Source: Gammaproteobacteria bacterium | Lineage (GTDB): Bacteria; Pseudomonadota; Gammaproteobacteria; JABXHR01 | NCBI GenBank assembly: GCA_013373515.1 | Contig: JABXHR010000090.1 | Span: 1 to 43,760 of the forward strand | Length of the DNA: 43,760 nucleotides | Direction: 5' to 3' | Shown here: piece by piece, positions 26,038-34,366 of the stretch | Numbering within the stretch: the first letter of the stretch is position 1 | How the letters are laid out: each line of letters opens with the position of its first letter | Program-made: the position numbers and the translations under genes | Notes under the pieces: generated by a model | What the model saw: only the letters and a program-made list of their open reading frames with translations | What the model was told of the DNA's origin: nothing | Database searches by the model: none

Positions 26038-27477
26038 TCAATCAAAAACGCCTTGGCAAAACCACTGTCCTTTTTCGCAATATATCCAGCGTTTAGTGCC
26101 GTTGCTGTCTTGGTCGATGGTGTAAATTCGGCGTTGATCATTTAACCACCAACCGCTTTCTAGGTATTCAGTGTGGTGACTGCCCTGAGGAGCGCAGATC
26201 GGCTTGGCATTTGGATAGAAGCCAACGGGGCGTTGTAGGCCCAATGGCATCACATAAGCCGGCGGTTTTGCTGACGTTTCCAGCTGCTGTTCAGGGCGAT
26301 GATCATCGTATAAGCACAGTGTACAGACTGACTCTGTGCCAAGCCGGTTGCGTATTAGGTCGATTAAACCGTTTTTTTCAGTGCGTTGCTGATTGCGGTT
26401 AAGCAATAAATCTTGGGTTTTAGCTTCGTAGGCTTGCAGTTGCCCGGCATCAAGCGACACGCCGTCGACAGGGCTTTCTAAGGTGACTGTCTCCAAGCGT
26501 TGTTGCCATAAACTTTGTAATTGTGCGGCATTCTGTGTGGCTTCAGAGAGTGATAGCTGGATACGCGTGATTGGATGGCAATTGCGGCGTCCTTCATGGT
26601 GCAGTGCAAGTTCACAGCTAATGCAGGCTTGTTGGCGTAGGCGTAGAAATGCACATAAGTCATTGATTAAACGAGCCAGTACAAAACGCAGCGATTGCGT
26701 GTTGTCGACGCTTTGTTGCAGTGAAATTTTGCTGGAAAACGTTTCTTCGAATCCCAGTGCAGTAGGCAAGGTTTGGGTCTCGCCTAAATACAGTTGTTTG
26801 AACTCGAGCAGGCGCTTATCAAAACGTCTGCTGAGCGAGCGTTGATCTAAGGCAAACCATTGGCCGACTTGATGAACGCCCATGGCCTCAAGACTGTCTG
26901 CCAGTGAAAGAGGCAGCACTTCGGTGACCAAACGTTGTTCTAGCCATTGTTTGTATTCCTTTGCATCCATTTGCCAGGCTGTATTTGCATAACGTGCGAT
27001 CAGCGTGCTGGCATGGGGGTGGGGGCCAAGTCCGAGCCTAAAGCACAATCCCAACGAGCTGAGTAACTCGCGAAGTTTATCCAGTAGAGGGTCAAAACCG
27101 CCGAACAGTGATTCGCTGGCACCAATTTCGACCAATAAGGTTTCTGAGTCGTAGCAAATGACTTCTGAGGACATGGATTGCAGCTGGATGGCAATTGAAT
27201 GTTGGAATTCTTGCTCGATCTCTGGGCGCTGCTCGATAAAGCGTGCACTGGGTGCAATGGCCTTGGCGCGATCTAATGTCTGGCCCAATTCAATTCCCAC
27301 CTGCAGCGCGGTCTTATTGGCGCTGATGACGGCGCTTGGTTTCTGACGCCTGACGATCACCACTTCAATCTCATGCATTTCGCTTTGCGTTATACAGAGC
27401 TGATCAAGCTGAAGTTGCGGGGTGAATATTCCCAACCAGCACTTACGGCGTGCTGACTTGCTGTGGTGTGTGCTCAT
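26038..27477 (-). CDS. imuB: ImuB, catalytically inactive Y-family polymerase-like mutagenesis protein
   Basis: The 479-residue DinB-like protein starts with CWLGIFTPQLQLDQL, the ImuB version of the Y-family first strand, where the metal-binding aspartate of true polymerases is replaced. The second catalytic motif (SIDE) is also missing; YDSETLLVEIGASESLFGGF stands in its place. A helix-hairpin-helix segment (SLADSLEAMGVHQVGQWF) and a little-finger-like region follow, then an ImuB-specific C-terminus rich in tryptophan. ImuB is a hub that brings ImuA and DnaE2 to the sliding clamp in damage-induced mutagenesis. It overlaps imuA by four bases. No dnaE2 follows. Confidence 0.88.
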   Translation of the reverse strand: MSTHHSKSARRKCWLGIFTPQLQLDQLCITQSEMHEIEVVIVRRQKPSAVISANKTALQVGIELGQTLDRAKAIAPSARFIEQRPEIEQEFQHSIAIQLQSMSSEVICYDSETLLVEIGASESLFGGFDPLLDKLRELLSSLGLCFRLGLGPHPHASTLIARYANTAWQMDAKEYKQWLEQRLVTEVLPLSLADSLEAMGVHQVGQWFALDQRSLSRRFDKRLLEFKQLYLGETQTLPTALGFEETFSSKISLQQSVDNTQSLRFVLARLINDLCAFLRLRQQACISCELALHHEGRRNCHPITRIQLSLSEATQNAAQLQSLWQQRLETVTLESPVDGVSLDAGQLQAYEAKTQDLLLNRNQQRTEKNGLIDLIRNRLGTESVCTLCLYDDHRPEQQLETSAKPPAYVMPLGLQRPVGFYPNAKPICAPQGSHHTEYLESGWWLNDQRRIYTIDQDSNGTKRWIYCEKGQWFCQGVFD

Positions 27478-28082
27478 GGTCGAGCGAGGCGGATGTGTTT
27501 TGAGCCGACCAATGCTTTGGCTTTGATCAGTTCAAGGTGTAATTCGGTGTTAGAGGCGTCTATGCACAAGCGCAAATTGGCGTGCGAGCTTTGATGGCGG
27601 TGGGCAGCTGGGCGAAAGCAAATCGTGGTGCACTGGCCTTGTTCAGAGGCCAATTGGGCGCGCCTTTGGGTTTTGGGCGTCGCTTGTGGGTTCCAGCAGA
27701 GCACCATCGATGCTGAGCCTTGTTTGGCAGATTGTTCAATGCTCCATTGCAAGTCTTTGTCTGTGCTTGGGAGAATTAGAAGGAGGTTATCGAGCTTGAC
27801 GCCCGCATAGACCAGTGCTGGCGCATATGGCGTGTAAGGCGGGTTGATCAAGGCCACAAGGGAATGTTGCGAAACAGAGGCAACCATGGGCAGGCATAAG
27901 CTCAATCCACCAACACCATAAACGCCCATAATCTCGCTAAGTGCGTGTGCCGGAAAGCCGCCACCGGGGATGGCTTGGTCTAAGGCGGGATGACCGCTTG
28001 GAATAGAGGGGTGTTCTGTGGGGTGATGCTGGCCGCGCCAAATATGGCGCGAGCCCTGCAACAGTGGTGTGAGCGCATCCAT
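27474..28082 (-). CDS. imuA: ImuA, translesion synthesis-associated RecA-like protein
   Basis: The 202-residue protein resembles the RecA-like core of ImuA. HPALDQAIPGGGFPAHALSEIMG matches the opening of RecA/SulA-type proteins, and a degenerate nucleotide-binding loop, GVYGVGGLSLCLP, replaces the usual Walker A. LLLILPSTDKDLQWSIEQSA and the C-terminal SNTELHLELIKA follow. The longest frame extends 82 codons into lexA in another frame; ATG 28082, 10 bases after the lexA stop, is the sensible start. With lexA upstream and imuB overlapping downstream it forms an SOS mutagenesis operon. Confidence 0.85.
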   Translation of the reverse strand: MDALTPLLQGSRHIWRGQHHPTEHPSIPSGHPALDQAIPGGGFPAHALSEIMGVYGVGGLSLCLPMVASVSQHSLVALINPPYTPYAPALVYAGVKLDNLLLILPSTDKDLQWSIEQSAKQGSASMVLCWNPQATPKTQRRAQLASEQGQCTTICFRPAAHRHQSSHANLRLCIDASNTELHLELIKAKALVGSKHIRLARP

Positions 28083-28092
28083 GATGAATGGC

Positions 28093-28743
28093 TCAATGAC
28101 GCAGCACTCCGACATACAACCCTTCGATATTGAACGACTCATCGCGAAGGTCAACTTTGATGATGTTGTAGTCGTCGTTTTCGGGATGTAGGTGGATGCG
28201 AGTGCTATCAACGCGTTCAAAGCGCTTGACGGTGACTTCTTCGCCGATGCGCGCCACCACAATTTGGCCATTGCGCACTTCTTGTGTGCTGTGTACGGCC
28301 AATAGATCTCCGTCCAAAATGCCCACATTAATCATACTGTCACCCTTGACGCGCAAAAGGTAATTGGCCGGTGGGTGAAAGAAACTGGGGGGAATTTGGC
28401 AGGTATCTTCGATGTGCTGCTCTGCCAAAACCGGCGATCCTGCGGCGACACGACCAATGATGGGTAGACCGTCGATTTCGGGGTCATTTGCGGCGCTAAG
28501 CTGAGCACACTCGGGGACGTGCTCGGCAGCCTCTGGCAGGAGTTGTATGCCGCGTGAGGAATTGGCTCGCAATTCGATTAGCCCTTTTTTGGCCAGTGCT
28601 CGCAGGTGCTCTTCGGCAGCATTGGCCGATTTGAAGCCAAAATGTTCGGCAATTTCGGCCCGAGTAGGGGGCATATTGCGATCTCGCATGTAGCGGCAGA
28701 TGAGCTGCATGATTTCACGTTGTCTAGGTGTTAGGCCACGCAT
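28093..28743 (-). CDS. lexA: LexA repressor
   Basis: The 216-residue SOS repressor begins with a winged helix ([23 protein letters not shown]). The self-cleavage site is Ala101-Gly102 in RVAAGSPV, and the catalytic dyad is Ser136 (KGDSM) and Lys173 (VTVKRF). Cleavage is triggered by RecA filaments after DNA damage. ATG 28743 has AGAGG seven bases upstream and is chosen over TTG 28749. A near-consensus LexA box lies upstream, indicating autoregulation, and imuA-imuB follow on the same strand. Confidence 0.96.
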
Positions 28744-28785
28744 GGGCAACCTCTGAGAATTCTGTTGCCATAACCTTACAATAAA

Positions 28786-28835: not shown

Positions 28836-29930
28836 TCAACTGATTTTTCTTACAGCCATTGCCACGCCTAAGCCGCCGCCGCTGGCAATAGCGCAAAGGC
28901 CCAATTGATTGAAGTTGAGCCGATGAAACTGGGAGGCCACCAAGATCGCGCCGGATGCGCCAATTGGATGTCCGCGCGCCAGTGCACCGCCTTGGCGGTT
29001 GGTTTTGTCATTCGGAAGTTGCAGCTGTTGTCGATTGAACATGGCTTGAGCGGCGAAGGCTTCCATGAGCTCGATGTCATCGTATTGTGATGGCAAAAGT
29101 CCGAGCTGGTGAACCGCTTGGTTAAGCGCGGCTGGCGGGCATTCTGCGTCACCTTGTGCACTTGAAAAGGCTTCGATTTGCAGCACATTTGGCGGCAGGT
29201 TCGGCGGTAGTTGTGAGCGACGGGTCATTAACACCAATGCTGCAGCATCTGCGCTCAGGGCGGTGGTGCTGCTATCGACACGATAGCCTTGATGCTCTGC
29301 CAAGCTTGGCGTTCTGGCACATAAGCGGCGTTGTAGTTCGCGAGTGGCAGGGTCTTGATCGATACCGTTGATCGCGGTGATGTCGTGGCGTTGGTTTGCG
29401 GCATGCTGCGAACGTCGATGGCTTTCGATGGCGTAATCCCACTGCGCTTCGTTGGTATAGCCGCATTCGGCTGCCAGTTCGGCGGCAGTCTGCGGCATAT
29501 CAGGGTCTCGCCCGGGGCTAAATCGTGGTCGGTCATAGAAAGTGGGGGGGGAGGTTGGGTAGGCGCGAAGTGGACGTGTACTGGCGCTTTCTACACCGCC
29601 TGCCACCACCCAGTTGGCTTGGCCACTTTGAATCATGGCTGCGCCAAGGCCGATGGCACTGAGTCCACTGGCGCACTGCATATCGACGGTTTGTGCGGGG
29701 CAGTGTATGCCCGCCATCAGCGCCATCAGTCTTGCAGGGTTGCCGCCGCCATAGAGTGCATTGCCGATCACAAGATGATCGATTTTGGGTGTTGGCTTGT
29801 CAGCCAGCAGCGCACGGAGAATCTCGGCGCCAAGGCTAGGCGCATCGAGTGATTTAAAAGCACCGTGAACCGGCACAACGGCACTTCTTGTGGCCGCCAC
29901 AATGACGCAGGGGTCTTCAGAGGGCGCCAT
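28836..29930 (-). CDS. Thiolase-family acyltransferase, YhfS-like
   Basis: The 364-residue protein is somewhat shorter than typical thiolases (~390). The nucleophilic cysteine is in DMQCASGLSAIG at ~86, the general-base histidine is in GGALARGHPIGASGA, and a second cysteine is in the C-terminal CAIASGGGLGVA. All catalytic positions are present. Thiolases join or split acyl-CoAs. It is the last gene of the operon bioM-bioN-bioY-ligase-thiolase, overlapping the ligase gene by 14 bases. GGAAAG lies before ATG 29930; the longer frame from 30059 only runs inside the ligase gene. By context it may act in making a biotin precursor (inference). Confidence 0.85.
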   Translation of the reverse strand: MAPSEDPCVIVAATRSAVVPVHGAFKSLDAPSLGAEILRALLADKPTPKIDHLVIGNALYGGGNPARLMALMAGIHCPAQTVDMQCASGLSAIGLGAAMIQSGQANWVVAGGVESASTRPLRAYPTSPPTFYDRPRFSPGRDPDMPQTAAELAAECGYTNEAQWDYAIESHRRSQHAANQRHDITAINGIDQDPATRELQRRLCARTPSLAEHQGYRVDSSTTALSADAAALVLMTRRSQLPPNLPPNVLQIEAFSSAQGDAECPPAALNQAVHQLGLLPSQYDDIELMEAFAAQAMFNRQQLQLPNDKTNRQGGALARGHPIGASGAILVASQFHRLNFNQLGLCAIASGGGLGVAMAVRKIS

Positions 29931-31170
29931 AGTTGATCTTTCCACTGGCAAGCTTGGGAAGAGCGTCGGCGATGTGTATGTGTACGCTGCGATAAGCCTC
30001 GCCAAGCTCTGTAACGAGGTGTTGTTTGAGTGCTGCGACTGAGGCGCTACTGACAGCATGGGCCGTCACCCGCTGGCCTCTCAGTGGGTCGTCGTAATGT
30101 TTGACGGCCACTTGAATGACCGCGGCGTGTTTTTGCAGCGCTGCTTCGATTTGCGCGGGGTAGAGGAGTTTGCCCGCGACCTTGATGGCATCGATTCTGT
30201 GAAAAATGTCCAGTTCACCGTTTTCGCGCAGCTTGCCTTGATCACCGACATAAATAAAACCATCTGTATCTTCTAATAGTTCCGCGTTGAGATAGCCAAG
30301 GCAACGTTGCGAGCTGCGTACCCAAATCTCATGGTCGTCACGAATTCGAATGTCGACGCCATCGAGCGGCAGGCCAACAGAGGATGGTTTGGTGCGGGTG
30401 AGATCATAGATGGATACAAAACTGAGCTCTGAAGCACCGTAAAAGCCCAAAAATTGAGTATTGGGCAGGACGTTTTGCCAAGTGTTTATTTGCGCGGTAC
30501 TGATGGCGCTGCCGCCCAGCAGAATGACTTTGGGCGGCTGTTTGCTAAGCGCTTGATAGCACAGTTCTAGGTGGGTTGGTGTGCCGACCCAGACATCCGC
30601 TGCAAGCGAATCAAAGTGCACCGATTTACCCCGATGCAGCGCCCATAACGCAAAAAATACCCCCATTGAATGTGCCGCGCCTGTGGCCACGGCAATGCTT
30701 GGGTACGTTCCCACGAAACGATCTAGGTGTTGATAGCTTTGTAGCCAAGAGGCTTCGTCACGAAAAAAACACTTTGGCGTACCAGAGGAACCCGAGGTGA
30801 AACTGGCATAAAACGCAGTGTGCAAAGCGGGGTTTTGAATGGACGGTTGGCCGACTTCGGTGGCCGAGAGCGTTTTGGCGAGTTGTTCTGCGGCGGCTTG
30901 CTGATCTAGCCCAAGTAGATAACAAAAGCCATCGCGGCTGGCTTGGATTAGGCGGGCAAGGTGCTCAAGCCACTGGCTCGTTTGGCTGTATACCAAGCTT
31001 GGGCCGTCACGATGTTGCGGCAAACTTGCCACCTGATCGGCCAGTGCTTGATAGGTGACGATCTGATGATCGCTCTGGATCGCCGCTGTGCTGGGCGCGT
31101 GTTTGGCCCAGTGTTGTAAGCGCGCGTGGTGAGCGCCCTGCATCGGTTTTAGGCTCGGCCGGTTAGGCAC
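29917..31170 (-). CDS. AMP-dependent acyl-CoA synthetase-like protein, YhfT-like
   Basis: The 417-residue ANL-superfamily enzyme is short for the family (usually ~500). The AMP-binding P-loop TSGSSGTPK lies near residue 125, GFYGASELSF (A5 motif) near 242, a variant A7 motif YVGDQGKL near 305 and HRIDAIKVAGKLLYPAQIE after it. The C-terminal catalytic lysine is in PKLASGKI. It should adenylate a carboxylic acid and pass it to CoA or another thiol; the substrate is unknown. GTG 31170 is the longest start and ATG 31143 an alternative; neither has a Shine-Dalgarno. The start lies within a 14-base tandem repeat and six bases after the bioY stop. Confidence 0.82.
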   Translation of the reverse strand: MPNRPSLKPMQGAHHARLQHWAKHAPSTAAIQSDHQIVTYQALADQVASLPQHRDGPSLVYSQTSQWLEHLARLIQASRDGFCYLLGLDQQAAAEQLAKTLSATEVGQPSIQNPALHTAFYASFTSGSSGTPKCFFRDEASWLQSYQHLDRFVGTYPSIAVATGAAHSMGVFFALWALHRGKSVHFDSLAADVWVGTPTHLELCYQALSKQPPKVILLGGSAISTAQINTWQNVLPNTQFLGFYGASELSFVSIYDLTRTKPSSVGLPLDGVDIRIRDDHEIWVRSSQRCLGYLNAELLEDTDGFIYVGDQGKLRENGELDIFHRIDAIKVAGKLLYPAQIEAALQKHAAVIQVAVKHYDDPLRGQRVTAHAVSSASVAALKQHLVTELGEAYRSVHIHIADALPKLASGKINYGAL

Positions 31171-31190
31171 GGCCGGTTAGGCTCGGCTGG
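31149..31190. repeat. Three tandem 14-base repeats at the bioY-ligase junction
   Basis: TTAGGCTCGGCCGG (31149-31162), TTAGGCACGGCCGG (31163-31176) and TTAGGCTCGGCTGG (31177-31190) follow each other without gaps, each differing from the first at no more than one base. They cover the bioY stop codon (31177-31179), the GTG start of the ligase gene and its first codons. The unit is not a multiple of three. Confidence 0.85.
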
Positions 31191-31728
31191 CAACAGCGCT
31201 AGGCAGGCCACGCATGGCCGCGGCCGTAATCATCACGCTGGCCGCCACTTTTAACAAATCACCCGGAATAAATGCGCCCATCACGGTGACCGCTTTGACG
31301 ATGTTTGCCCCAGTCACCAGCATAAAACCGCCAATGCCACAGATATAAAGTCCCACAATACCGCCGAGTGTTGTTGCAAGCGCAGTGGCGACGTAAATAT
31401 TGAAAGACTTAAACCACTGCATCAACAATCCAGTAAGGCCCGCTGCGATGGGAAAACCGACAACAAACCCCGCTGTGGGCGAGCTAAATACGGCCAGTCC
31501 ACCACGGCCGCCTGCCAGTAAAGGCATGCCAATGGCCACCACAAAAATAAACAGCATCGCCGCTAAAAATCCATTGCGTGCACCGAGAAATACACCTGCC
31601 AACATAATACCGAGGCTTTGTGCGGTAATGGGCACGCCGGTGGGTAGCATCATAGAAGGCATAAAGCCAAGGGCGGCGATCAGTGCGGCAAACAGGGCGA
31701 TTGAGGCGATGTCTTTAGAAGGTGTCAT
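31177..31728 (-). CDS. bioY: Biotin transporter substrate-binding (S) component
   Basis: The 183-residue integral membrane protein has about six hydrophobic helices. It shows the BioY patterns ALIAALGFMPSMMLPTGVPITAQSLGIMLAG (residues ~14-44), GMPLLAGGRGGLAVFSSPTAGFVVGFPIAA (~67) and the late segment GAFIPGDLLKVAASV (~148). BioY captures biotin for the ECF transporter. Here it is encoded directly after its energising components BioM and BioN, so this is a full three-part BioMNY system and not a solitary BioY. It starts at ATG, 29 bases after the bioN stop. Confidence 0.93.
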   Translation of the reverse strand: MTPSKDIASIALFAALIAALGFMPSMMLPTGVPITAQSLGIMLAGVFLGARNGFLAAMLFIFVVAIGMPLLAGGRGGLAVFSSPTAGFVVGFPIAAGLTGLLMQWFKSFNIYVATALATTLGGIVGLYICGIGGFMLVTGANIVKAVTVMGAFIPGDLLKVAASVMITAAAMRGLPSAVASRA

Positions 31729-31757
31729 TGGGCTAAGTCTGAAGGTTTGTCGAGATT

Positions 31758-32390
31758 TTAAGGCTTTTCGCGGTGTGTTGCGAGATGTAAGCGATTGCTC
31801 AATGCATCGCCGACCTGTCTAGCCAGTAAGAGTGTTTGGATAATCAACGGGGTCATCAGGTGCCAGTGCCAGCGGCTATTTTGACCATTGAAGTGGCGGG
31901 TATGGTATGCGGCGGTCAGCTGCTCATTTTTGCGAAGAATATCGGGGATAAATCGCAACATTAAGCTGATACCGAGCGACAGTGTGCGGCTAGAGGGCAA
32001 AAACGGTACCCAATCCAGTGGCTTGAGCACCGTTTGGAAAACGTCTAACAGCTCATCGAGCGGCGTGCTCATGTTCAATAGGTTGGCCATCAAAATCAAT
32101 GCAATGATTCGCAGCGATAGCGTCAACGCCACCAGCCAGCCTTGGTCAATCAACACCCAAACCACAAATAGCGCCAAAAATGGCCCCAGCGAGAGAAATT
32201 TGCGCATTTGCGCTCTGCCGTGCTCGCCGTAGTACACATGGCCATAGATGGCCAAGACGGCCATTATCGCGTTGAGCGCGATATGATTGAGCACAATCAC
32301 AACAAGGCTCAATCCCAGCAAAGCTGCGAGCTTGACCCCTGGGCTAAGGCGATTGAGTGGATGGTCTGCAGGGCGATAGAGACTAATCAC
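31758..32390 (-). CDS. bioN: Biotin ECF transporter transmembrane (T) component
   Basis: The 210-residue protein has four or five hydrophobic helices (for example LAALLGLSLVVIVLNHIALNAIMAVLAIYG and FLALFVVWVLIDQGWLVAL). A cytoplasmic coupling region follows, SRTLSLGISLMLRFIPDILRKNEQLTAAYHTR, where EcfT proteins contact the ATPase. The GTG start overlaps the bioM stop by eight bases. It links BioY to the BioM ATPase dimer. Confidence 0.88.
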   Translation of the reverse strand: MISLYRPADHPLNRLSPGVKLAALLGLSLVVIVLNHIALNAIMAVLAIYGHVYYGEHGRAQMRKFLSLGPFLALFVVWVLIDQGWLVALTLSLRIIALILMANLLNMSTPLDELLDVFQTVLKPLDWVPFLPSSRTLSLGISLMLRFIPDILRKNEQLTAAYHTRHFNGQNSRWHWHLMTPLIIQTLLLARQVGDALSNRLHLATHREKP

Positions 32391-33060
32391 GATCTAGTTG
32401 CGCCCTGCAAAATGTCTCGTACTGCGACAAGACATCATCGGCTGGCCCGTGGGCCTTGAGCGTGCCTTCGTCAAGCCAAAGCACCTGATCGCAGTAGCGT
32501 AGCTCGCTTGGCTGATGACCGATGTGAATGCTCGGTACCGCAAGCGCTACAATTCGCTGTTGCATCCGCTGTTGCTGCACCCAGTCAAGGGCAGAAAAGG
32601 GCTCGTCGAACACGATGAGTTCAGGGGTCATAATTAAAATGGCGAGTAGACACACCAATTGCTTTTGACCTTCGGACAACTCGGCAACAGGCGCGTCGGC
32701 AATTGAACTTAATTGGTGTTGCTCTAGCAGTTGCATCGCTTGAGCATCGGCGAGTGTTTTGTCGAGACCACTTTGCACCAGCCCAAAGCGAATATCTTCG
32801 CGCACGGTGGGCATCAACAGCTGATGATCTGGATTTTGAAAGACATAGCCGACGGCGCAGTCGGTGCTGGGCTTGTGATCGAGCGTAATACCCCCTTCGG
32901 TTGGGGTTTCCAGTCCAGCAATGAGCCGCAGCAATGAGCTTTTGCCACTGCCGTTGAGGCCAATGACACCTAGACGCTGAAATGTGATCGCCCCACACAA
33001 GTCACGCAAGGCCGGGCGGGCATGTCGAATCAGCGTGAGGTGGTCTAGGTGAAGATGCAA
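32383..33060 (-). CDS. bioM: Biotin ECF transporter ATPase (A) component
   Basis: The 225-residue ABC ATPase has Walker A GLNGSGKSS (residues ~34-42), a Q-loop in GYVFQNPDHQLLMPTV, the ABC signature LSEGQKQ near residue 126 and Walker B LIVFDEPFSALDW. The histidine switch is in IHIGHQPSEL. The Q-loop FQNPDHQ is the form typical of ECF and cobalt/nickel ATPases. The start is TTG with no clear ribosome site and no in-frame ATG nearby, so the N-terminus is tentative. It is the first gene of the biotin operon. Confidence 0.9.
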   Translation of the reverse strand: MHLHLDHLTLIRHARPALRDLCGAITFQRLGVIGLNGSGKSSLLRLIAGLETPTEGGITLDHKPSTDCAVGYVFQNPDHQLLMPTVREDIRFGLVQSGLDKTLADAQAMQLLEQHQLSSIADAPVAELSEGQKQLVCLLAILIMTPELIVFDEPFSALDWVQQQRMQQRIVALAVPSIHIGHQPSELRYCDQVLWLDEGTLKAHGPADDVLSQYETFCRAQLDRD

Positions 33061-33086
33061 GTGAATCGAGGTGTAATTAAAACGCC

Positions 33087-33092
33087 ATTATA
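33087..33092 (-). promoter_or_regulatory. Candidate -10 of the biotin operon promoter
   Basis: Read towards bioM this is TATAAT, 27 bases before the TTG start. TTGTGT at 33114-33119 would be its best -35, but the spacing (21) is too long. No BirA palindrome (TTGTAAACC-type arms) or BioR-like site was recognised in the 33061-33139 spacer, which also serves the divergent TerB-like gene. Confidence 0.35.
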
Positions 33093-33139
33093 TCCCTGCT
33101 ATGCTTGCACAGAACACAAAACACCCCCAAATCTGAGCG

Positions 33140-33583
33140 ATGATTGAAAAACTAATGAAATGGCTCGGTGCAGACGCCGGCCAAGCAAAGCCCAGTATTG
33201 ATACCAAGCGCGCAGCCACAGCATTGCTGTTGGAAATTATGGCTGCCGATCAAAGTTGGGACGATCGTGAGCGACAAAAGATATTCGAGTTGCTACAAGA
33301 CGAGCTCGGCGTATCGGCAGAAGACTGCCAAACCTGCCTAATAATGGCGGAGCAAGATCATGCTGATTCAAATGATTTATACCGCTACACGCGAGTCATC
33401 AACGATCACTATGGTGAAGACGAAAAGTTCAAATTGGTCATCTTGTTGTGGAAAGTGGCCTATGCCGATGGAGATTTAGATCGCTTCGAGGAACATCTCA
33501 TCCGTAAAATCGCCGATCTAATCTATGTGCCGCACAAAGATTTTATCGCCGCCAAGCTCCATGCGCAGCGCGATCTTTCTTAA
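33140..33583 (+). CDS. TerB-like tellurite-resistance-domain protein
   Basis: The 147-residue soluble helical protein matches the TerB/DUF533-type fold. There are two related helical halves with acidic turns: LLLEIMAADQSWDDRERQKI (~28-47) and LLWKVAYADGDLDRFEEHLI (~100-120). The AADxxWDDRE and YADGDLDRFE pattern, with metal-coordinating acidic residues, is the family hallmark. Solitary TerB-like proteins are common and rarely have a proven link to tellurite; function is unknown. Only three bases separate it from the next gene, so the two are probably co-transcribed. Confidence 0.8.
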   Translation: MIEKLMKWLGADAGQAKPSIDTKRAATALLLEIMAADQSWDDRERQKIFELLQDELGVSAEDCQTCLIMAEQDHADSNDLYRYTRVINDHYGEDEKFKLVILLWKVAYADGDLDRFEEHLIRKIADLIYVPHKDFIAAKLHAQRDLS

Positions 33584-33586
33584 TCT

Positions 33587-34366
33587 ATGTCGAATTATCC
33601 GCTCGGCGATGGGGTAGCGCCTTACATTCCTGAGCAGTCGCGTGACATTCGTCATATGGGCATTCGCCAAGTCGAACAGGCGCACTGGTTGGCGCCTCAC
33701 CCGGCAGCGGAGCATTACCTGGCAAATAAAACTCAGCAGCGTATCTGTTTAGGCGACAAGGTGCATGCTTGCATTGAAGGGTATGAGCCATCTTTGGTCA
33801 CAGTGGTGCGCTACATGCTGGATCACTTGGCGAAAGTGCATCGTCGCTCAGTTGCCATAACAGCGGATGAGCCTCTCGATGCATTTTGGCAGCTATCGCT
33901 CGCCTGCATTGAAGATATCTGTGTGATTGATCTATCGGCTGCACAGCCGATGTTTGTGGCGGGCTCATTGTGTGCACCCACCTTGTGGCGCTTAGAGGAG
34001 AAGCTCGGCACGTCGCTGTTGGCTTTGCATCAGCCGGTGCCAGCCTATGCCGATATGCTGGGTCGGCAAGTGGATCAATTCTTTTTGCGCTTAAAGCCTG
34101 GCCGTGTATTTCAACGCTACAACTACGGCCTTTCCAAAAGTGAGGCACTTTGCCAGCGGCAGCCTAGCGAGGGATGCTTTGAATTTTGGCGTACAGAGCA
34201 GCAATCGCTTGTGCGCGTGCCCAATTCAGATCTAGCACTGTTTACTATTCGCGTGCAGGTACACCACCACACTCAGCTCACAGAAGCCCAATGGCAGCAG
34301 GTTCAAGGGATGATGGCGGCGCAGCCCGAGGACATACGACGCTACAAGGGCATGGCTACAGACTAA
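33587..34366 (+). CDS. DUF3445 (heme-dependent oxidative N-demethylase-like) protein
   Basis: The 259-residue protein shows the DUF3445 layout: an N-terminal IRHMGIRQVEQAHWL, LSLACIEDICVI, the core FVAGSLCAPTLWRLEEKLG, IH-type LHQPVPAYADMLGRQVDQFFLRLKPG, then WRTEQQSLVRVPNSDLALFTIRV. The family is named after the alpha subunit of a heme-dependent oxidative N-demethylase, which works with other subunits that are not encoded here. The actual activity is unknown. It follows the TerB-like gene after three bases and its end overlaps the opposing GNAT gene by 11 bases. Confidence 0.8.
   Translation: MSNYPLGDGVAPYIPEQSRDIRHMGIRQVEQAHWLAPHPAAEHYLANKTQQRICLGDKVHACIEGYEPSLVTVVRYMLDHLAKVHRRSVAITADEPLDAFWQLSLACIEDICVIDLSAAQPMFVAGSLCAPTLWRLEEKLGTSLLALHQPVPAYADMLGRQVDQFFLRLKPGRVFQRYNYGLSKSEALCQRQPSEGCFEFWRTEQQSLVRVPNSDLALFTIRVQVHHHTQLTEAQWQQVQGMMAAQPEDIRRYKGMATD

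Follow-up and report, generated by a model that had tools for sequence, protein, structure and literature searches.

A stretch of gammaproteobacterial DNA of 43,760 nucleotides (contig JABXHR010000090.1, hereafter the window) contains a row of five genes, at 28836-33060 on the minus strand, in which a biotin importer of the energy-coupling factor (ECF) type is encoded together with an AMP-forming acyl ligase and a thiolase homolog. Comparison with related loci indicates that this cassette is real and widespread and of an already known kind, and that the window carries a diverged member of it. Two observations are new: the base needed for carbon-carbon chemistry has been lost from the thiolase throughout the sampled family, and a role of the ligase-thiolase pair in pimelate supply fits poorly. 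We tentatively read the row as a cassette for biotin acquisition, carried mostly by auxotrophs, whose ligase and thiolase may activate an acid (a biotin vitamer being the likeliest) and then transfer or hydrolyze the acyl group; this reading leads the field but falls somewhat short of being probable.

The five open reading frames run head to tail. An earlier note on this DNA had described five genes with junctions of -8, +29, +6 and -14 bases, and both the reading frames and the Pfam families of their products agree with that description. bioM and bioN overlap by 8 bases, gaps of 29 and 6 bases separate bioN from bioY and bioY from the ligase gene, and the ligase and thiolase genes overlap by 14 bases, assuming that the thiolase starts at the ATG at 29930. 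The genes are as follows.

32383..33060, minus strand: bioM, EcfA-type ATPase of the biotin ECF importer, first gene of the row (TTG start as listed; Pfam ABC_tran, 2.3e-24)
31758..32390, minus strand: bioN, EcfT transmembrane coupling subunit (Pfam CbiQ, 8.9e-16)
31177..31728, minus strand: bioY, biotin-binding S component (Pfam BioY, 4e-29)
29917..31170, minus strand: AMP-forming acyl ligase, YhfT-like (PRK07638-type), 417 amino acids (GTG start; Pfam AMP-binding and AMP-binding_C)
28836..29930, minus strand: YhfS-like thiolase homolog (PRK06690-type) without the second catalytic Cys, 364 amino acids (Pfam Thiolase_N and Thiolase_C)

For bioM, the best NCBIfam matches were ECF_ATPase models, and its translation contains a Walker A motif (GLNGSGKSS) and a signature motif (LSEGQ). 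The row thus combines a BioY S component with a dedicated EcfA (BioM) and EcfT (BioN), the arrangement of a Group I ECF importer, and by homology to the BioMNY family, a dedicated ECF biotin importer, its products are predicted to transport biotin. The N terminus of the ligase is shorter than in typical ligases. The row differs little in GC content (0.53-0.58) from the rest of the window, which is slightly lower; horizontal transfer was considered, and nothing is claimed in this respect.

Occurrence of the pair was assessed with a profile built from five ligases and run over 398 Pseudomonadota genomes. This search yielded 16 clear members including the host, at 260 to 514 bits, followed by a gap to scores below 195; the window ligase as a single-protein query against the genome contigs retrieved distant ligases only. 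Besides the window, 49 loci were examined, including four plasmid loci and 30 loci of one alphaproteobacterial family. The thiolase gene adjoined the ligase gene in every one of them, and BioY was present within the fetched neighborhood in 38. The window order, bioM-bioN-bioY-ligase-thiolase on one strand, was found in nine further loci (one without a bioM match). The full five-gene order is seen in Azospirillum, and also on a plasmid of Streptantibioticus (Actinomycetota) and on pSymB of Sinorhizobium meliloti, where the ligase is not listed in the annotation and was located by tblastn. In the remaining BioY-linked loci the pair was convergent or otherwise arranged; in many loci in the family of genome G285, the pair faced a bioMNY operon in convergent orientation, and a nitroreductase-family gene was often present as well. 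Since the same order recurs in other classes and another phylum, the row is no chance neighborhood. It is not unique to the host organism either, because two carriers (G171 and G259) belong to the host's own class, and the genomes sharing that class fit Gammaproteobacteria in the GTDB sense, the assignment given in the earlier note.

Other genes accompany the pair in some of these loci. Many loci (L033, L034, L095, L102, L103, L147-L153 and others) have, next to bioY or next to the pair, a nitroreductase-family gene that might encode a third enzyme with a shared role. In Rhizobium etli (L121, 6032-7470) and S. meliloti (L122, 8152-9535), genes for a 4HBT thioesterase and for a member of the zinc-dependent alcohol dehydrogenase family (in R. 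etli a PIG3-like reductase) stand with the pair and give the impression of a small acyl-CoA pathway put together at these loci.

Curated equivalog models connect both enzymes with putative Bacillus relatives. The best NCBIfam equivalog model was PRK07638 for the window ligase (129.6 bits, curated cut-off 518) and PRK06690 for the window thiolase (183.5 bits, curated cut-off 498). Four alphaproteobacterial thiolases and two ligases that were tested had the same best models with higher scores, all below the curated cut-offs. We assume PRK07638 and PRK06690 to be the Bacillus YhfT and YhfS types, respectively. In phylogenetic trees, 20 BioY-type thiolases were placed on one side of a branch (support 100/99) and 21 ordinary thiolases, i.e., 20 paralogs from three carrier genomes and E. 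coli AtoB, on the other, and 20 ligases were similarly separated (SH-aLRT 99) from 18 background ligases. The pair therefore does not group with beta-oxidation enzymes, an outcome that the earlier note had raised, and the relatedness to YhfT and YhfS claimed there agrees with the best models and the separate clades, as far as the equation of model and Bacillus protein holds. The two window sequences lie on long branches (1.3 and 2.5), so they are diverged members of their families.

The adenylation motifs A3, A5, A7, A8 and A10 were conserved in the ligase, including the catalytic Lys. The enzyme could form an acyl-CoA, and it could also be an amide ligase or an acyl carrier protein (ACP) ligase. 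Among solved structures, the best profile match of the ligase family was to entries 6sq8 and 6h1b, labelled 'Fatty acid CoA ligase', which we take to be the amide bond synthetase McbA. McbA differs in being an aryl-acid amide synthetase and its similarity to the window ligase family is low; the match is no more than an indication that the reaction of the ligase may end in something other than a CoA ester.

In the Zoogloea thiolase, the acyl group is first taken up by Cys89, an oxyanion hole is made of Asn316 and His348, and Cys378 serves as the base in the carbon-carbon step (PMC3406046). By alignment with E. coli AtoB and in Zoogloea numbering, the corresponding codons in the window are the following.

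29673..29675, minus strand: nucleophilic Cys (Cys89), conserved
28968..28970, minus strand: His of the GHP motif (His348), conserved
29064..29066, minus strand: Met at the place of Asn316 of the NEAF motif
28884..28886, minus strand: Ala at the place of the second catalytic Cys378 (CxG loop)

The view that all catalytic residues of the two enzymes are intact thus holds for the ligase motifs and for the nucleophilic Cys and the His of the thiolase, and fails for Cys378 and Asn316, which are replaced by Ala and Met. Among 50 homologs including the window protein, the nucleophilic Cys and the His were conserved in all and the second Cys was absent from all (Ala in 39, Gly in 9, Pro in 2), and the place of Asn316 was occupied by Met in 39, Asn in 9 and His in 2. 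The second Cys was present in 20 of 20 paralogs from the three carrier genomes and in AtoB, a control showing that its loss is specific. Because the base for the carbon-carbon step is gone, the thiolase homolog is not expected to make or break carbon-carbon bonds, and its residual chemistry is likely acyl transfer or hydrolysis.

Scoring of a single-residue variant suggested that the second Cys is missing beyond the sampled proteins as well. Replacement of Gly by Cys in silico in the Azospirillum protein raised the score of a generic thiolase model from 403.8 to 409.2 and lowered that of PRK06690 from 370.7 to 367.4, values that describe the preference of the PRK06690 model rather than an actual Bacillus YhfS sequence. 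Given this preference for Gly over Cys, absence of the second Cys appears to be a trait of the PRK06690 family. Structure prediction for the window thiolase alone gave a mean pLDDT of 36.5.

Two variants of the active site were seen in other thiolases. In L102 and L103, from carriers of the host's class, His at the place of Asn316 yields a Cys-His-His set as in ketoacyl-ACP synthases, and these proteins could be decarboxylative condensing enzymes. In L172 and L173, Pro occupies the place of the second catalytic Cys.

Biotin synthesis genes, a search for which the earlier note had proposed, were assessed in the host and in other carriers. The host assembly (3.65 Mb, 96.9% complete) yielded no real match to E. 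coli BioB, BioF, BioD or BioC; all that was retrieved were class III aminotransferases similar to BioA and a single weak stretch of radical-SAM type. The host is therefore a probable biotin auxotroph, judging from its gene content. Biotin protein ligase was represented in the host by a fragment cut by a contig end (81.9 versus a cut-off of 83.1). Among the 16 Pseudomonadota carriers, BioB was above the curated cut-off in three and BioF in one, compared with BioB in 303 of the 398 Pseudomonadota genomes (Fisher p 1.2e-6), and over all carriers BioB was missing in 41 of 47. Two rhizobia reported to be biotin auxotrophs are R. etli CFN42 and S. meliloti 1021 (PMC8914248); the pair is carried by R. 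etli CFN42 itself and by another strain of S. meliloti. Since biotin protein ligase was found in 16 of 16 carriers, the pair adds to this enzyme and does not replace it, and the idea of the pair as its replacement was dropped.

In the model that we favor, BioMNY would import biotin, and the ligase would adenylate the carboxyl group of an acid and form an acyl thioester. The acid would most likely be a biotin vitamer, either biotin itself or a form altered in the side chain or conjugated. The thiolase homolog would accept the acyl group on its nucleophilic Cys and pass it to another acceptor or to water, with no carbon-carbon chemistry. Three lines of evidence lead there: conserved linkage implies that the pair works with biotin uptake, missing synthesis genes imply that in most carriers it acts on something other than a precursor, and the active site points to moving acyl groups, not to chain building. 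Acyl transfer is what the sequences suggest for the pair. A biotin vitamer is the most economical substrate, with biotin sparing and biotin retention as the main rivals, and it is only suspected, being the least sure part of the model.

Several observations weigh against this model. BioY was not found nearby in 11 of the 49 further loci, and BioB was present in 6 of the 47 carriers. Of 200 genomes sampled from one alphaproteobacterial family, 34 are carriers and 166 are not; BioB occurred in 3 and 26 of these, respectively (p 0.43), and because this difference is not significant, the association seen at the phylum level is in part phylogenetic, i.e., due to common descent. Auxotrophy of the host rests on one assembly that is 96.9% complete, and the only family relative searched is 58% complete. 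B. subtilis and S. aureus, in which yhfT and yhfS are regulated by BirA, make biotin (PMC6391492, PMC11089781). Finally, confidence in the exact substrate is low.

Among the alternatives, biotin sparing fares best, and we regard it as unlikely but credible. When biotin is short, acetyl-CoA carboxylase would fail and malonyl-CoA would be low; the ligase could then activate external fatty or dicarboxylic acids for lipids, with the thiolase homolog moving the acyl group on. The family neighbors of the ligase are indeed medium- and long-chain acyl-CoA ligases, and such a function would suit auxotrophs and prototrophs alike. However, the pair is tightly linked to the importer and not to lipid genes, and carriers already own ordinary acyl-CoA ligases, several of them in the host. 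Retention of biotin is more doubtful. Here the ligase would make a biotin adenylate or thioester unable to leave the cell, and the thiolase homolog would release it or hand it on, providing a store beside biotin protein ligase, which all 16 carriers possess. Auxotrophic hosts would profit from keeping biotin, and rhizavidin reportedly helps rhizobia to conserve biotin (PMC8914248), but a bacterial biotinyl-CoA store was not found in the literature searched.

The functional tie to biotin uptake that the earlier note had proposed is favored by conserved linkage and separate clades, but its other half, conversion of a precursor, is not. In that proposal, the ligase and thiolase would supply biotin synthesis with a pimeloyl thioester by shortening a longer dicarboxylic or long-chain acid. 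Adjacency of both genes to bioY and retention of BioB in a few carriers are consistent with it. However, pimeloyl-CoA would lead nowhere in the host, as BioB, BioF, BioD and BioC were not detected there, and most carriers lack BioB and nearly all of those scored lack BioF. The Claisen base is missing from each of the 50 homologs, the window protein has in addition lost the Asn of NEAF, and the cassette contains neither a hydratase nor a hydroxyacyl dehydrogenase. We consider this explanation very improbable. The notion that two ordinary beta-oxidation genes lie downstream of bioY by coincidence, which the generic labels in public records (AMP-binding protein and thiolase family protein) might encourage, can be dismissed almost entirely in view of the strongly supported separate clades, the BioY linkage across several families and a second phylum, and the altered thiolase active site.

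The only sizeable gap upstream of the row is the following.

33061..33139, minus strand: region divergent from a TerB-domain gene, with a TATAAT-like hexamer some 25 bases ahead of the bioM TTG

A promoter scan flagged nothing upstream of bioM. Co-transcription of the five genes is therefore suggested by their spacing, and the single operon-like unit described in the earlier note draws its support from conserved linkage. Upstream of bioM, no BirA- or BioR-like site stood out from the window background, and a diverged operator or another regulator is possible.

On the other side of the gap, at 33140-34366 on the plus strand, the TerB-domain gene and a heme-dependent oxidative N-demethylase-like gene are divergent from the row. 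Directly downstream of the thiolase gene is lexA, followed by genes for a short RecA-like protein and a relative of Y-family polymerases (26038-28749, minus strand); these genes resemble the lexA-imuA-imuB mutagenesis cassette.

The genes yhfT and yhfS are biotin-regulated, and their role in fatty acid or pimelate supply has only been guessed. Our data place two constraints on such a role: most carriers are unable to finish biotin synthesis, and the Claisen base has been lost in every homolog examined. No assigned function for the ligase-thiolase pair was found in the literature searched. It is possible, if rather unlikely as a complete account, that the pair performs a so far undescribed step in vitamin B7 metabolism, as an ATP-driven module for acyl transfer by which auxotrophs use, store or release biotin vitamers, occurring in at least Pseudomonadota and Actinomycetota, and in Bacillota if the equation with YhfT and YhfS holds. 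If it is true that the pair handles biotin vitamers, this would be relevant to the life of auxotrophic bacteria of soil, root nodules and the sea at trace amounts of biotin.

The systems closest to the window in the literature are bioY/yhfT/yhfS of B. subtilis and the BirA-controlled bioY and yhfS-yhfT operons of S. aureus, which share with it a BioY tied by position or regulator to an AMP-forming ligase and a thiolase homolog. In S. aureus, yhfS-yhfT is repressed by BirA with biotin (PMC6391492), which fits the vitamer, sparing and retention readings alike. These bacteria differ from the host in that they make biotin and employ BirA regulation, whereas the window has a dedicated BioMNY and no BirA-like operator stood out upstream of its bioM. 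The window thiolase is also of a Met/Ala subtype, whereas the PRK06690 model favors an Asn/Gly subtype. BioMNY of Rhodobacter capsulatus and R. etli consists of the same three subunits in the same order; the window row adds two enzyme genes, whereas the R. capsulatus and R. etli operon is treated as bioMNY alone in the literature that we found. The closest match in organization is provided by the loci of Azospirillum, S. meliloti pSymB and Streptantibioticus, which have the same five genes in the same order. Their thiolases retain the Asn of NEAF, unlike the window protein with its Met, and the second Cys is replaced by Gly in Azospirillum and Streptantibioticus, compared to Ala in the window. 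The S. meliloti locus, unlike the window, adds the thioesterase and alcohol dehydrogenase-family genes described above.

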